Shown here in pieces: positions 47,392 through 51,347 of a DNA stretch of 64,000 bases. The stretch is from assembly GCA_903893745.1 (NCBI GenBank), contig CAITNF010000004.1:62001-126000 (forward strand). The letters are read 5' to 3'. The notes below the pieces were generated by a model. The model saw nothing but the letters and a program-made list of their open reading frames with translations. It had not been told where the DNA came from and searched no databases. Position 1 is the first letter of the stretch. Each line of letters starts with the position of its first letter. The DNA is from an uncultured Actinomycetes bacterium. GTDB taxonomy: Bacteria; Actinomycetota; Acidimicrobiia; Acidimicrobiales; RAAP-2. Position numbers and translations under genes: made by a program.

Positions 47392-47631
47392 ATGGATCGT
47401 AATGAAGCTCTCGCGAAATTTACCGACAACGCCGTTGAAGTTCTGGCTGTCGACGCAGCCAAGGTCACACTCACTGCTTCGTTCGCTGACGACCTTGGCG
47501 CGGACAGTCTGGACCTCGTCGAATTAGTAATGGCCCTCGAAGAGACTTTTGATATTGAAGTTGCCGAAGATGAGTTGAAGGACATTCGAACTGTCGGCGA
47601 GGCCTTCGAACTGATTTACGCCAAGCTGTAG
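47392..47631 (+). CDS. acpP: Acyl carrier protein
   Basis: 79 residues, acidic four-helix carrier. Phosphopantetheine attaches at Ser39 in the [12 protein letters not shown] motif. It carries growing acyl chains for FabD, FabG and FabF encoded around it. The TAG stop overlaps the fabF GTG by one base. Confidence 0.97.
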
Positions 47632-48830
47632 TGCTACTCGGAATCACGTCTGACGGCCCAATTCAGGGTCGACGAGTTGCCGTAACGGGACTTGGCGCGC
47701 TCACGTGTGCTGGAGTCGGGGTCGATGCCCTTTGGTCAACGCTCTTGACGACCGATGCTCCGGTAAACAAACGAATCGGCGAGTTCCCCACAGATCACCT
47801 TGGCGGCCCCAAGGAGATTCGACGACTTGATCCATTCGCACTTTACGCAGTGGTCGCGGCCGATGAAGCTTGGCGCCAAAGCGGACTGATCGGTCCTCTC
47901 GACGACGCGGCCAGCATCGTGACTACCGGGATTGGGGGACTGCAGACCGTCATTGAGCAAATTCGCGTGCAAGAGACACGAGGGCTTGACCGAGTTTCAC
48001 CCTTCATGGTTCCAATGATGATGCCCAACGCCGCCACGGCAGCCGTGTCAATGCGCTTCGGTCTTGGTGGGCCGTGTGAAACGGTAACGACAGCCTGTGC
48101 CGCCGGTACCCACGCCATTGGCAACGCGGCTCGATTGGTGTCAAGCGGTCGAGCGACCGTCGCCGTCGCCGGTGGCGCCGAAGCGGTAATGGTTGACATC
48201 GCCGAAGCTGGTTTTCGAAATATGACTGCACTTAGTTCGAGTGATCTCTCTCGTCCCTTTGATCTTCACCGCGATGGTTTCGTCATGGGTGAAGGCGCCG
48301 GTATTTTGATACTTGAGGACTGGGACTACGCCCACGCACGCGGAGCAACGATTCTCGCTGAAGTCATTGGAGCGGCGTCCACGGCGGATGCCCATCACAT
48401 CACAGCGCCAGATCCGTCCGGACGAGGCGCAATTCGTTGCATGGAACTCGCCCTCGCTGACGCCGGCATCTCGACCGACGAGGTATCGCATATCAACGCC
48501 CACGGAACATCAACTCCCCTCAATGATCTAGCTGAATCAGTTGCAATGCAGCGGCTGTTTGGGGACACGATTCCTCCCGTCACCTCCATTAAGGGCCACC
48601 TAGGGCACTCTCTGGCCGCCGCAGGGGCGCTCGAGGGCGTCGCTTCGGTGCTCACCCTGCGTAATCAGCTGATTCCGCCGACTGCGGGAACGACCACAAT
48701 CGATCCGGCGATAGCCCTTGACGTTGTAATTGGCTCGCCGCGATCACAAGCACTCGAAACGGTACTTTCTAATTCGTTTGGTTTTGGTGGTCACAACGGG
48801 AGCGTCGTTTTTCGACGTTACGCTGACTAA
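47631..48830 (+). CDS. fabF: 3-Oxoacyl-ACP synthase II
   Basis: Condenses acyl-ACP with malonyl-ACP. 399 residues with catalytic Cys156 in TTACAAGTHAIG, His in NAHGTSTPLND near 290 and His in KGHLGHSLAAAGALEG near 325. GTG start overlaps acpP. No fabH in the window. Its stop shares CTAA with the convergent TrpF-like gene. Confidence 0.96.
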   Translation: MLLGITSDGPIQGRRVAVTGLGALTCAGVGVDALWSTLLTTDAPVNKRIGEFPTDHLGGPKEIRRLDPFALYAVVAADEAWRQSGLIGPLDDAASIVTTGIGGLQTVIEQIRVQETRGLDRVSPFMVPMMMPNAATAAVSMRFGLGGPCETVTTACAAGTHAIGNAARLVSSGRATVAVAGGAEAVMVDIAEAGFRNMTALSSSDLSRPFDLHRDGFVMGEGAGILILEDWDYAHARGATILAEVIGAASTADAHHITAPDPSGRGAIRCMELALADAGISTDEVSHINAHGTSTPLNDLAESVAMQRLFGDTIPPVTSIKGHLGHSLAAAGALEGVASVLTLRNQLIPPTAGTTTIDPAIALDVVIGSPRSQALETVLSNSFGFGGHNGSVVFRRYAD

Positions 48831-49495
48831 GCACCAAAGAAATCTTCGTTGTTCCGTTCGACGTACGAGTTTTCGTAGGCCCAGCGAGCGTTACTGATGA
48901 AATCGCCGAGCAAAACTGGATCCTTGACGCCGGGGCTACTCTCGACGCCGCCGCGAGCTTCCACGCCCCACACCGGGTAATTCTGGACCACATCAACCAC
49001 GGTCGCCACGCTCAGACCACCCGAAGCGATACACGGGACACGTAGCGCCTCATCAGCGAAATCGTCGACACAATTTACCAAGGCATTGTGCTCGTCTTGC
49101 TCGGGCATCACAAAGTAGTCAACACTTGGCGCCGAACGCACGAGGTCGACCGCCTTAAGCGTTGACACCATTCGAAACACTGTATTTACGCGTTCCGAAA
49201 TCCAGGACACTTGGGACACGGTCATGGAACCTTCGATCTGCACCACCGAAAGTCCGAGGGTATTTGCAATCTCCGCGACGCGCTCGGGCATTTCGTTTCG
49301 AAATGAACCGACTGTCAAGGCCCCTTGGGGTAGTCGTCGGATGATGTCACGAGCGAACGTTGGTGAGACTTGCCGAGGGGTCGGGCCAAAATCAAAACCC
49401 ACAGCGCTCGCGCCGAGACCGATTGAGAGCAGCGCGTCATCTTCCGTGGTGACGCCGCCGACACCAATGTACAGTCCGTCAATTATCAGGCGCAT
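48827..49495 (-). CDS. TrpF-like protein without catalytic residues
   Basis: 222 residues with clear TrpF architecture: the N-terminal strand (IGVGGVTTEDDALLSIGLGA), ASGGLSVATVV phosphate loop and GVEARGGVESSPGVKD C-terminus align with the true TrpF at 263-904. The catalytic Cys is Gly13 and the LLVD acid is replaced by a FVMPEQDE stretch, so it should not isomerise phosphoribosylanthranilate. A binding or altered catalytic role is possible. ATG at 49495 has GGAG seven bases upstream; the frame opens at GTG 49516. Its closest neighbour is ygfZ, with a 43-base spacer. Confidence 0.8.
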   Translation of the reverse strand: MRLIIDGLYIGVGGVTTEDDALLSIGLGASAVGFDFGPTPRQVSPTFARDIIRRLPQGALTVGSFRNEMPERVAEIANTLGLSVVQIEGSMTVSQVSWISERVNTVFRMVSTLKAVDLVRSAPSVDYFVMPEQDEHNALVNCVDDFADEALRVPCIASGGLSVATVVDVVQNYPVWGVEARGGVESSPGVKDPVLLGDFISNARWAYENSYVERNNEDFFGA

Positions 49496-49538
49496 AGGTT
49501 TGCTCCACGCCCTCACGCTAATTCAAGAGTCTCGGGAA

Positions 49539-50237
49539 TTAGGTAATCGCAGAAACTACTGTGGCCCCACTACCAGCTAATCCGTCTAGGCCCAGCAGAG
49601 ATCGGTGCGCGATACCAAGGGCCTCAAAACCACTTTCACGCTCGATCACCGACGTGAGCCCTTGAGGACCCGAGGGACCCTTCGAACGGAGCAAGCTGTC
49701 CATCTCCTCGGGCGATTCACCCTCTACTCGAACGAGCCGCCAAGGGACCGATGAGCCGCGAGCGTCCAGACGTCCAACTAGCTCCTGGCCGGTGAAACAG
49801 CCTTTTGAAAATGACACCGTTGACTCAACGAAGTGGTTGCCAAAGGCTTGAGGTACGAGGTTGGCCCTAAATTCATTCTCGCCCGGCCAACCCTTGGTCA
49901 CTAACTCGCCAACTGTCGCTACCGGACCAGCTGTGTCATCCTCTCGTTCCAAGACGCACTTAACGCGTAACAAAAATCGGCTCAGTCGACGCAGCGACAC
50001 TTCCGCGAGGCCCTGTGAAAGCGTCAGTGAGAAGCCATCCTCGATCTGCCGTACCAACGCTGACGAAATGACGGCACTATCCGGTTCGAGAAGTAGCGTC
50101 CACATTCCGTCGTCCTTGACTGCACTCAAGTCTTGGGAGAGTTGACCTTGAAGGAATTCCAGACTTTGGGGACCTCTCGCCGAAATCTTCGCCCAAGGTG
50201 CCAATGCCGTTGCACTCTGTACCGTCCACTGCCCCAT
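49539..50237 (-). CDS. ygfZ: YgfZ-type folate-binding Fe-S maintenance protein
   Basis: GcvT-related protein that uses folate in repair or assembly of some Fe-S enzymes. 232 residues with the diagnostic KGCFTGQE motif near 150 (conserved Cys) and the LEFLQGQLSQDL segment near 26. Short for the family (E. coli 326) but normal for Actinobacteria. ATG at 50237 lies eight bases after a TACTGT box shared back-to-back with the next gene. Confidence 0.88.
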   Translation of the reverse strand: MGQWTVQSATALAPWAKISARGPQSLEFLQGQLSQDLSAVKDDGMWTLLLEPDSAVISSALVRQIEDGFSLTLSQGLAEVSLRRLSRFLLRVKCVLEREDDTAGPVATVGELVTKGWPGENEFRANLVPQAFGNHFVESTVSFSKGCFTGQELVGRLDARGSSVPWRLVRVEGESPEEMDSLLRSKGPSGPQGLTSVIERESGFEALGIAHRSLLGLDGLAGSGATVVSAIT

Positions 50238-50295: not shown

Positions 50296-50490
50296 ATGAG
50301 CATGAAGAATGAGCTCAATACGATCACCTCGACCATTACTGAACTATCAGCCAGAATTACCACCCTCGTTGAAGCTGAAGGCGCAACAATGCCAACTGAG
50401 GTCTACGCCGAGCTCGTTGCCGCAGAACGTACCGTCGGAGCATTGCTGCGTCGCCTCAACCGTGTTGCCGGCCGAGTTAACCCATCGTGA
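50296..50490 (+). CDS. Small helical protein upstream of mshD, unknown function
   Basis: 64 residues: two amphipathic helices (about 3-26 and 33-55) and a short basic tail. The open frame begins at 50251, but ATG at 50296 has AGGAAAGGGG five bases upstream. The stop overlaps the mshD GTG (GTGA), so the two are coupled. I do not recognise it; link to mycothiol synthesis is only positional. Confidence 0.6.
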   Translation: MSMKNELNTITSTITELSARITTLVEAEGATMPTEVYAELVAAERTVGALLRRLNRVAGRVNPS

Positions 50491-51347
50491 CTAGCGCCGA
50501 GCCCCAGATCAACGCTTGGCAACAACGTCCAAGTTTGACCCAAACGGAACGACTCGATGTCTTAAATCTACTGAACCGCACTGAAGATTCTTTGGGACGC
50601 GAAGCCATCGACGAAGGGCGTCGTCGTTCAGTAGTGCACGGCTGGCCCGCCGAACATTGGTTGCGTTACGAGGGGGAAGTCTTAGTCGAATACGCTCATT
50701 TAAGCGGAGCTGACATACCAACGCTCGAGCTGTGCGGTGGCGGATTCAGTGCCGGTTTACTGAGCGCACTCTTGACCAGCCATTCGACAATTGATTGGTG
50801 GATTCGAGAAATCGAGCCACCGGCAATTGGTTCAGTGGTTCGCACTCTCCAACTTATGCGAATTGCCATAACCTCGATGGACGCAGAAATTCCTTCCGGA
50901 GCAACGCTGCGGAACTTTGAGCCGGGACGCGATGATGCTGCCTGGCTTGAGCAGAATAATGCCGCCTTTTCACACCACCCCGAGCAGGGAGCTTGGCGTA
51001 ATGAGGACCTCGCCGAGCGGACGCACGAACCATGGTTCGACTCCTCAAGTTTTTTGCTGCTGGAGTTCGATGGTCGACTCGCTGCGTCGTGTTGGACCAA
51101 GGTCAACGAATTGAACCCTCAGCGATTTGGTGAGATCTACATAATTTCGGTTCATCCCGATTTTCAAGGACGTGGTTTGGGCAGAGTGATGGTTCTGCAG
51201 GGACTGGCTTCACTACGACGAAGAGGTGTGAATACCGGCATACTGTTCGTTGACAAATCGAACATCCCAGCAAAAGAACTGTACGAAAATCTGGGATTTA
51301 CCGTAGTGCGAAACGACCATCTCGTCCGATTCTCTGCTGAGGACTAA
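50487..51347 (+). CDS. mshD: Mycothiol synthase
   Basis: MshD acetylates Cys-GlcN-Ins in the last step of mycothiol synthesis, the actinobacterial low-molecular-weight thiol. 286 residues with two GNAT domains; the active C-terminal one has GEIYIISVHPDFQGRGLGR near 215 and the N-AASCWTKV strand near 190; HPEQG near 160 is family typical. GTG at 50487 overlaps the preceding small gene. Confidence 0.9.
   Translation: MTSAEPQINAWQQRPSLTQTERLDVLNLLNRTEDSLGREAIDEGRRRSVVHGWPAEHWLRYEGEVLVEYAHLSGADIPTLELCGGGFSAGLLSALLTSHSTIDWWIREIEPPAIGSVVRTLQLMRIAITSMDAEIPSGATLRNFEPGRDDAAWLEQNNAAFSHHPEQGAWRNEDLAERTHEPWFDSSSFLLLEFDGRLAASCWTKVNELNPQRFGEIYIISVHPDFQGRGLGRVMVLQGLASLRRRGVNTGILFVDKSNIPAKELYENLGFTVVRNDHLVRFSAED

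Follow-up and report, generated by a model that had tools for sequence, protein, structure and literature searches.

The window analysed here, a 64,000-nucleotide stretch of a contig from an uncultured Actinomycetes bacterium, includes two genes related to trpF, the gene for phosphoribosylanthranilate (PRA) isomerase, an enzyme widely used to study how barrel enzymes evolve. The product of only one of them has the catalytic residues of the enzyme, which raises the question of what the other protein does and how it came to be kept. The first gene, named T (263-904, complementary strand), codes for a canonical TrpF as judged by Pfam and alignment, with Cys and Asp present, and is located in a trpC-trpF-trpB operon together with an ORF (901-1698, same strand; ORF list and trpC tree) that we take to be trpC. 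The second, named B (48827-49495, complementary strand), codes for a 222-amino acid TrpF-derived protein without the catalytic pair, as defined by its ORF, its Pfam match and alignment.

The B ORF runs from 49495 to 48827 and is intact; its 222 amino acids are counted from an ATG, and a GTG is found 21 bases further upstream. The ribosome-binding site noticed in the initial annotation corresponds to a GGAG sequence (49503-49506, complementary strand), located by eye 7 bases before the ATG. The description of B as an intact TrpF homologue beside the true TrpF was also correct: it matches PF00697 (PRAI/TrpF) with 67.5 bits, well over the cut-off of 22.7, and can be aligned to T (266-886) over 198 residues without gaps and with 28% identity (E 1e-22). 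A search of the genome that includes the window, which is 96.4% complete, revealed no third TrpF-like gene beside B and T. Directly upstream of B, 43 bases apart and on the same strand, is a gene for a YgfZ-like protein identified by family search (49539-50237). A convergent ORF from the ORF list (47631-48830, forward strand), which we take to be fabF, overlaps the B stop by 4 bases and served as a synteny anchor, with mshD, the mycothiol synthase gene assigned by ORF and family evidence (50487-51347, forward strand), as the second one.

According to the available excerpt of PMC2667513, Cys7 and Asp126 are the catalytic residues of the Thermotoga maritima TrpF (1LBM), and Arg36 binds the carboxylate of the ligand. 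When the B protein of the window was aligned to this enzyme (all codons on the complementary strand), Gly13 (49457-49459) was found in place of Cys7 and Pro131 (49103-49105) in place of Asp126, and Arg36 was retained as Arg41 (49373-49375). Asp35 (49391-49393), at the end of strand 2 by alignment and model, corresponds to TrpF position 29, and Glu88 (49232-49234) to His83. The phosphate-side element consisting of residues 179-192, EARGGVESSPGVKD (48920-48961), is kept, with Arg181 replacing Ser/Ala, and the C-terminal element reads GGVESSPGVKD. Both the loss of the two catalytic residues and the conservation of the phosphate-binding and C-terminal elements, as initially annotated, are therefore found in the window, and the elements are alike in most B proteins. 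The case is also a warning for annotation, as the window protein passes the Pfam cut-off for TrpF although it is predicted to be unable to carry out the TrpF reaction.

B is not a peculiarity of one genome. In a census of 99 genomes of the genus, nearly all of them drafts in many contigs as are the relatives in general, B was present in 85. Eleven genomes have one TrpF, two have T without B (G111 and G113), and one, G085, which is 88% complete and has one TrpF and no ygfZ match, was left uncalled. Of the 85 B copies, 78 have their full or almost full length, and seven are partial at contig ends or split in frame. A further TrpF-like match was found in 83 of the 85 B genomes, the exceptions being G036 (86% complete) and G112 (70% complete), with the qualification that the match in G083 may be the other end of B. 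In the 32 genomes where both sequences are full, T has Cys and Asp in all 32. The single TrpF of the 11 other genomes keeps the catalytic pair, except in G105, where the gene (L145, 3392-4060, in the trp operon) has an Asp codon (GAT) for the catalytic Cys and keeps Asp126.

The B query matched 17 named loci, 16 of which are B loci. Their titles are mostly those of Acidimicrobiaceae, Acidimicrobiales or actinobacterial metagenome-assembled genomes, and some isolate names include palsa or bog. The fabF-B-ygfZ-mshD locus was also present in records titled Candidatus Saccharibacteria and Acidobacteria (L036, CAJCJA010000026.1, and L038, JABBNY010000067.1); judging from the gene order, the bins or titles of these two look mislabelled. 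A B-only profile used on 296 genomes of the class gave nothing above 197.3 bits outside the genus. Since the same profile scored six B genomes at 299.5-378 bits, the divergent B of G099 at 208 and the TrpF of G117 at 268.6, a divergent B outside the genus could be missed. At E 1e-20, 146 of the 296 genomes had no match to this profile. Seventy of the 73 other genomes of the family had one match and three had none; two non-genus genomes, G333 and G367, had two matches each, those of G333 at 173.1 and 139.5 bits.

Residues were counted, using Thermotoga numbering, in 83 B rows (5 of them partial) and 81 rows of other TrpFs, leaving out nine duplicate loci and, from the residue alignment, L161, L182 and L185. 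Position 7 is Ser in 74, Ala in 7, Gly in 1 and Cys in none of 82 B proteins, and in the others it is Cys in 80 of 81 and Asp in the remaining one. The replacement of the general base by Gly, which the initial annotation took from the window, is consequently right for the window and does not describe the family: no orthologue shares the Gly, although the ygfZ and mshD neighbors are common to B loci, and by this alignment Gly13 is a private change of one genome in a family already devoid of Cys. Position 126 in B is Pro in 76 of 81, Asp in 4 and Leu in 1, a contig-end fragment; the other TrpFs have Asp in 80 and Glu in 1. Position 29, at the end of strand 2, is acidic in all 83 B rows (Asp in 57 and Glu in 26) and Ile, Val, Asn or Leu in all 81 others, a count that could be circular because an Asp or Glu at this very position was what assigned a genus row to B. 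The 81 non-B rows are exactly the 11 single-copy, 34 T and 36 other-genus TrpFs, so that absence of the acid did not cause any row from the B locus to be left out, and the five partial B rows, which were added by locus position, also have Asp or Glu there.

Other changes accompany these. Position 83, which is His in 79 of 81 other TrpFs, has an acidic residue (Asp or Glu) in 59 of 81 B rows and V, T, S, G, H or A in the rest. The segment following strand 6 that includes Gly134, Ser135 and Gly136 (81, 79 and 81 of 81 other TrpFs) and Trp141 (71 of 81) was lost in B, and Tyr or Trp is found at residue 98, unlike in TrpF. On the phosphate side, Gly158 is kept in 70 rows and Gly159 in 74, as are Asp/Glu178 (79 of 79), Glu184 (75), Gly188 (73) and Asp191 (79 of 79), and a new Arg replaces Ser or Ala at position 180 in 64 of 79. 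These glycines and the SGVE/PGxKD element are present in the window and most B proteins, and are altered in side lineages such as G081/G098. A subgroup formed by G097, G088, G084 and G099 (L152, L153, L154 and L156) has Ala at position 7, Asp rather than Pro at 126, Trp for Arg36 and an altered phosphate element. The C-terminal tail of B is conserved (V212 in 70, R214 in 68 and W205 in 69 of 75), and the T proteins listed, 14 of the 34, stop some 5-10 residues sooner than B. A tail with a YDW-like motif is found in most of the 14 listed TrpFs from other families (L053-L069) and is absent from the listed T proteins; the B tail is different.

Could B still be a PRA isomerase, using Ser or Gly at position 7 and dispensing with the general acid? 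The TrpF fold, the presence of Arg36 in 69 of 83 rows and the retained phosphate elements would be in keeping with this. However, both catalytic residues known from 1LBM (excerpt of PMC2667513) are gone together with the GSG/Trp segment, and every one of the 32 genomes with both genes has a T with Cys and Asp. With the best NCBIfam TrpF model the window B scored 82.6 bits and two other B proteins 105.1 and 94.2, compared to 153.3 for T and 161-168 for the sister TrpFs; none of the NCBIfam equivalog cut-offs is reached by B, nor by the canonical T or the proteins of G070, G006 and G105. A persisting isomerase activity is hence very improbable, and from the residue pattern the activity was very likely lost.

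The position of the genes suggests how this came about. In 9 of the 11 single-copy genomes the fabF-mshD interval holds trpC-trpF-trpB and ygfZ, and at 9 of the 11 loci there is also a chorismate-binding gene; the contigs of G013 and G105 stop short of fabF and mshD, and the only ygfZ match in G118/G119 was weak. In genomes with B, this interval is occupied by ygfZ and B, separated by -11 to 48 bases (median 40; 75 loci measured of 78). At 31 other T loci trpC-trpF-trpB is found elsewhere, with a gene on the opposite strand that is presumably trpD, and mostly beside genes that we take to be those for a gamma-carbonic anhydrase and der. B therefore occupies the spot where the single-copy relatives keep trpF, and it is B that is the resident gene and the canonical TrpF that is the one elsewhere; the idea that B is a spare paralogue, free to diverge beside a working TrpF, has to be turned around. 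The 36 TrpFs from other genera and families, most of them with trpC and trpB, have Cys in all 36, and Asp in 35 and Glu in 1. T and the single-copy TrpFs are predicted to be functional, judging from their residues and operons.

The same comparison bears on the ygfZ neighbor, the adjacency of which was confirmed as stated above. Since ygfZ was already beside trpC-trpF in the old operon, its adjacency to B was inherited and says little on function, and the functional link between B and ygfZ that the tight pairing had suggested was rejected.

Phylogenetic trees, from which the archaeal L048 was left out, are consistent with a change on one stem. In the careful TrpF tree (48 rows: 14 of 83 B, 11 of 11 single-copy, 11 of 34 T and 12 of 36 other TrpFs; bootstrap not settled) B is one clade with support 100/100, its nearest sister is the TrpF of G070 (98/90), followed by those of G006, G117 and G105 (94/84), and the stem of B is 0.47 changes per site long, compared to 0.13 for G070. 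None of the 82 B proteins keeps Cys, four of 81 have Asp at 126, and the single-copy TrpFs, the only orthologues found with the catalytic pair, branch outside the B clade. A quick fabF tree showed the single-copy genomes as a basal grade and the B genomes as one group, with support of 50 for the exact split and 95 when G070 is included; with another row set, without three long-branch rows and one duplicate, G070 was found inside the B group at 81-88. T joins G118/G119 on long branches (94/98). The single-copy TrpFs of these two genomes (L163 and L162 for G118 and G119) are in the old fabF-mshD position and yet group with the T clade, which may hint at TrpF exchange within the genus. A horizontal origin of the T operon from another family was considered and rejected, as the trpC genes of the T operon and of the old operon form one clade apart from the sampled families (98, quick trpC tree). 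We infer from loci and trees that, within the genus, tryptophan synthesis moved to another place and the changes in the resident trpF occurred along a single stem.

A stranded gene could be a slowly decaying relic of the old operon, and some lineages would agree with this. B is strongly eroded in G081/G098, where most of the phosphate element is gone, has a split frame in one fragmentary genome, G069, shows phosphate-side changes in G084/G088/G097/G099, and was lost in G111/G113, which are relatives of G081/G098. In these last two the locus has no room for a B remnant, since only 14 bases separate the fabF and ygfZ stop codons in G113, and in G111 the two overlap; a loose search for remnants in them gave 33 matches with E up to 1, all weak among the 23 listed (best 0.013). 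G111 and G113 are sisters (96) adjoining G081/G098 in the fabF tree, and their loss of B fits one event in the sampled tree. The signs of decay anticipated as a counterargument by the initial annotation are thus limited to these lineages.

Against a relic, 78 of the 85 B copies are complete or almost complete, the new residues are coherent, and the spacing between ygfZ and B is within -11 to 48 bases in 75 of 75 measured loci. When the 32 genomes that have both genes were compared pairwise, the B proteins averaged an identity of 0.606 and the T proteins one of 0.480, and B was the more conserved in 479 of 496 pairs. In 20 listed close pairs (B identity at least 0.80) the NG86 dN/dS of B ranges from 0.03 to 0.33, with a median of about 0.12, and is below that of T in 18. 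With a looser filter (250 pairs) the medians were 0.341 for B and 0.462 for T, B being lower in 214, and 233 B pairs with dS 0.1-0.8 had a median of 0.536 and a maximum of 1.01; we think that these high values stem from underestimated dS in distant pairs. The close pairs indicate that B is maintained by purifying selection, the looser filters giving values up to 1.01. Slow decay is for these reasons hardly credible as an explanation of B, and the view that it is maintained was well founded. The consistent loss of the catalytic residues, together with retention across most of the genus, means that B probably has a new role.

To what end the protein is kept can be approached from its predicted structure. 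The AlphaFold2 model of B, made with 89 aligned sequences (73 of the 78 full-length B including the window, 10 of 11 single-copy and 6 of 36 other rows), shows the TrpF barrel in full, with pLDDT 91.8 and pTM 0.89. In a VIA-align comparison TrpF structures filled the first 11 ranks (Z 20.7-26.5), other barrels having Z of 19.5 or less, and the best PDB matches were 1NSJ and 1LBM (Z 26.0-26.5, rmsd 1.9-2.1, 191-197 residues). In the model, residues 13, 35, 88, 131 and 179-181 sit at the C-terminal end of strands 1, 2, 4, 6 and 8, or immediately behind it; their side-chain geometry is predicted. The fold is predicted to be kept and the catalytic residues are lost, as is expected of a pseudoenzyme. 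A putative phosphate site is likely retained.

With middling confidence, we consider B a repurposed TrpF that would not isomerize PRA and would act as a binding protein, or pseudoenzyme, for a putative phosphorylated ligand. The resident TrpF, which would have been stranded when tryptophan synthesis passed to the trpC-trpF-trpB operon elsewhere, lost Cys, Asp, His83 and the GSG/Trp segment, and gained an acid at the end of strand 2 that is invariant in B. A phosphate-bearing ligand may still be bound in the TrpF barrel by the elements of strands 7 and 8, in most cases with the help of the Arg, so that the remodelled pocket could capture a phosphorylated small molecule which would control or assist a partner. 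The tolerance for Ser, Ala or Gly at position 7 argues against a base or nucleophile there, and as position 126 is mostly Pro, only one always-acidic new group is left; we infer from this a binding protein rather than an enzyme. Several points go against this explanation: the acids at 29, 83 and 178 could form a new catalytic site; B was dispensable in G111/G113 and eroded in G081/G098; G084/G088/G097/G099 have Asp at 126 with Ala at 7; Arg36 is gone in 14 of 83; and dN/dS was higher with the looser filters.

The first of these leads to the possibility, which we are inclined to doubt, that B has become an enzyme for a different phosphorylated sugar; its old phosphate cradle would then be combined with a new catalytic acid, the one that ends strand 2, and possibly also with residue 83 and Asp178. 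Position 29 is acidic in 83 of 83 B rows and 0 of 81 others (subject to the sorting described above), position 83 in 59 of 81 and position 178 in 79 of 79, Arg180 is present in 64 of 79, the new residues are at or beside the C-terminal strand ends in the model, and a new activity would be in keeping with the long stem of B and the constraint after it. On the other hand, only one new position is always acidic, Asp and Glu interchange at it, and residue 83 is variable; moreover, there is no substrate and no pathway context, the neighbors being the inherited ygfZ and fatty-acid genes.

A partner of a different kind would be T itself, or TrpC, with B as the inactive member of a heteromer through which tryptophan synthesis would be tuned, a role that noncatalytic paralogues have elsewhere in metabolism. 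The further TrpF-like match in 83 of the 85 B genomes (that of G083 possibly being the other end of B), the conserved C-terminal tail of B, which the shorter listed T proteins do not reach, and a precedent in the same pathway, the TSB-like protein of eudicots (excerpt of PMC12727527), would favor it. We regard it as improbable, since G111 and G113 keep T without B, T evolves fast and B does not, and most of the listed TrpFs from single-copy genomes and other families already have a tail.

A lineage of at least 85 genomes turned TrpF into a protein without its catalytic pair and then held it tighter than the canonical enzyme, and since sister species have the canonical form at the same place, the locus offers a before-and-after series for a released gene gaining a new role. 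We propose, tentatively, that the released resident TrpF became a new enzyme or a metabolite-sensing protein with the acidic strand-2 residue as key group; if this were true, the TrpFs of G070, G006 and G117, with the catalytic pair, and of G105, with Asp for Cys, would allow the stepwise conversion to be replayed. Among the matches listed from the open-access literature, judged by titles and the beginnings of abstracts, no noncatalytic TrpF paralogue and no TrpF of this genus was recognised.

Compared to TrpF (PF00697; 1LBM/1NSJ), B is alike in the whole fold, the gene origin, Arg36 in 69 of 83, the phosphate glycines and the SGVE/PGxKD element. It differs in lacking Cys7, Asp126, His83, GSG 134-136 and Trp141, and adds the acid at 29, Arg at 180 (64 of 79), Tyr/Trp at residue 98 and its own C-terminal tail. 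The single-copy TrpFs of G070, G006, G117 and G105 share 48-51% mean identity with B and the same ygfZ-adjoining interval (the G105 contig ends before fabF and mshD), but have the catalytic pair (Asp for Cys in G105), are found within trpC-trpF-trpB, and come from genomes with no second TrpF-like match. PriA is a member of the superfamily of ribulose-phosphate-binding barrels. HisA, which belongs to the same superfamily as B, relies on the conserved Asp8, Asp127 and Asp169 (excerpt of PMC2667513), while the strand-1 position, the one compared, is Gly or Ser in B. The TrpF of G105, with an Asp reminiscent of the one in strand 1 of HisA, might be a natural variant that is active, as predicted from its sequence. 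In core eudicots, TSB-like is a noncatalytic paralogue derived from TrpB by change of key residues and was shown to activate TSA, as described in the excerpt of PMC12727527. TSB-like and presumably B are tryptophan-pathway paralogues of the noncatalytic type, one derived from TrpB and the other from TrpF, and the eudicot case indicates that the tryptophan pathway can recruit a noncatalytic paralogue.
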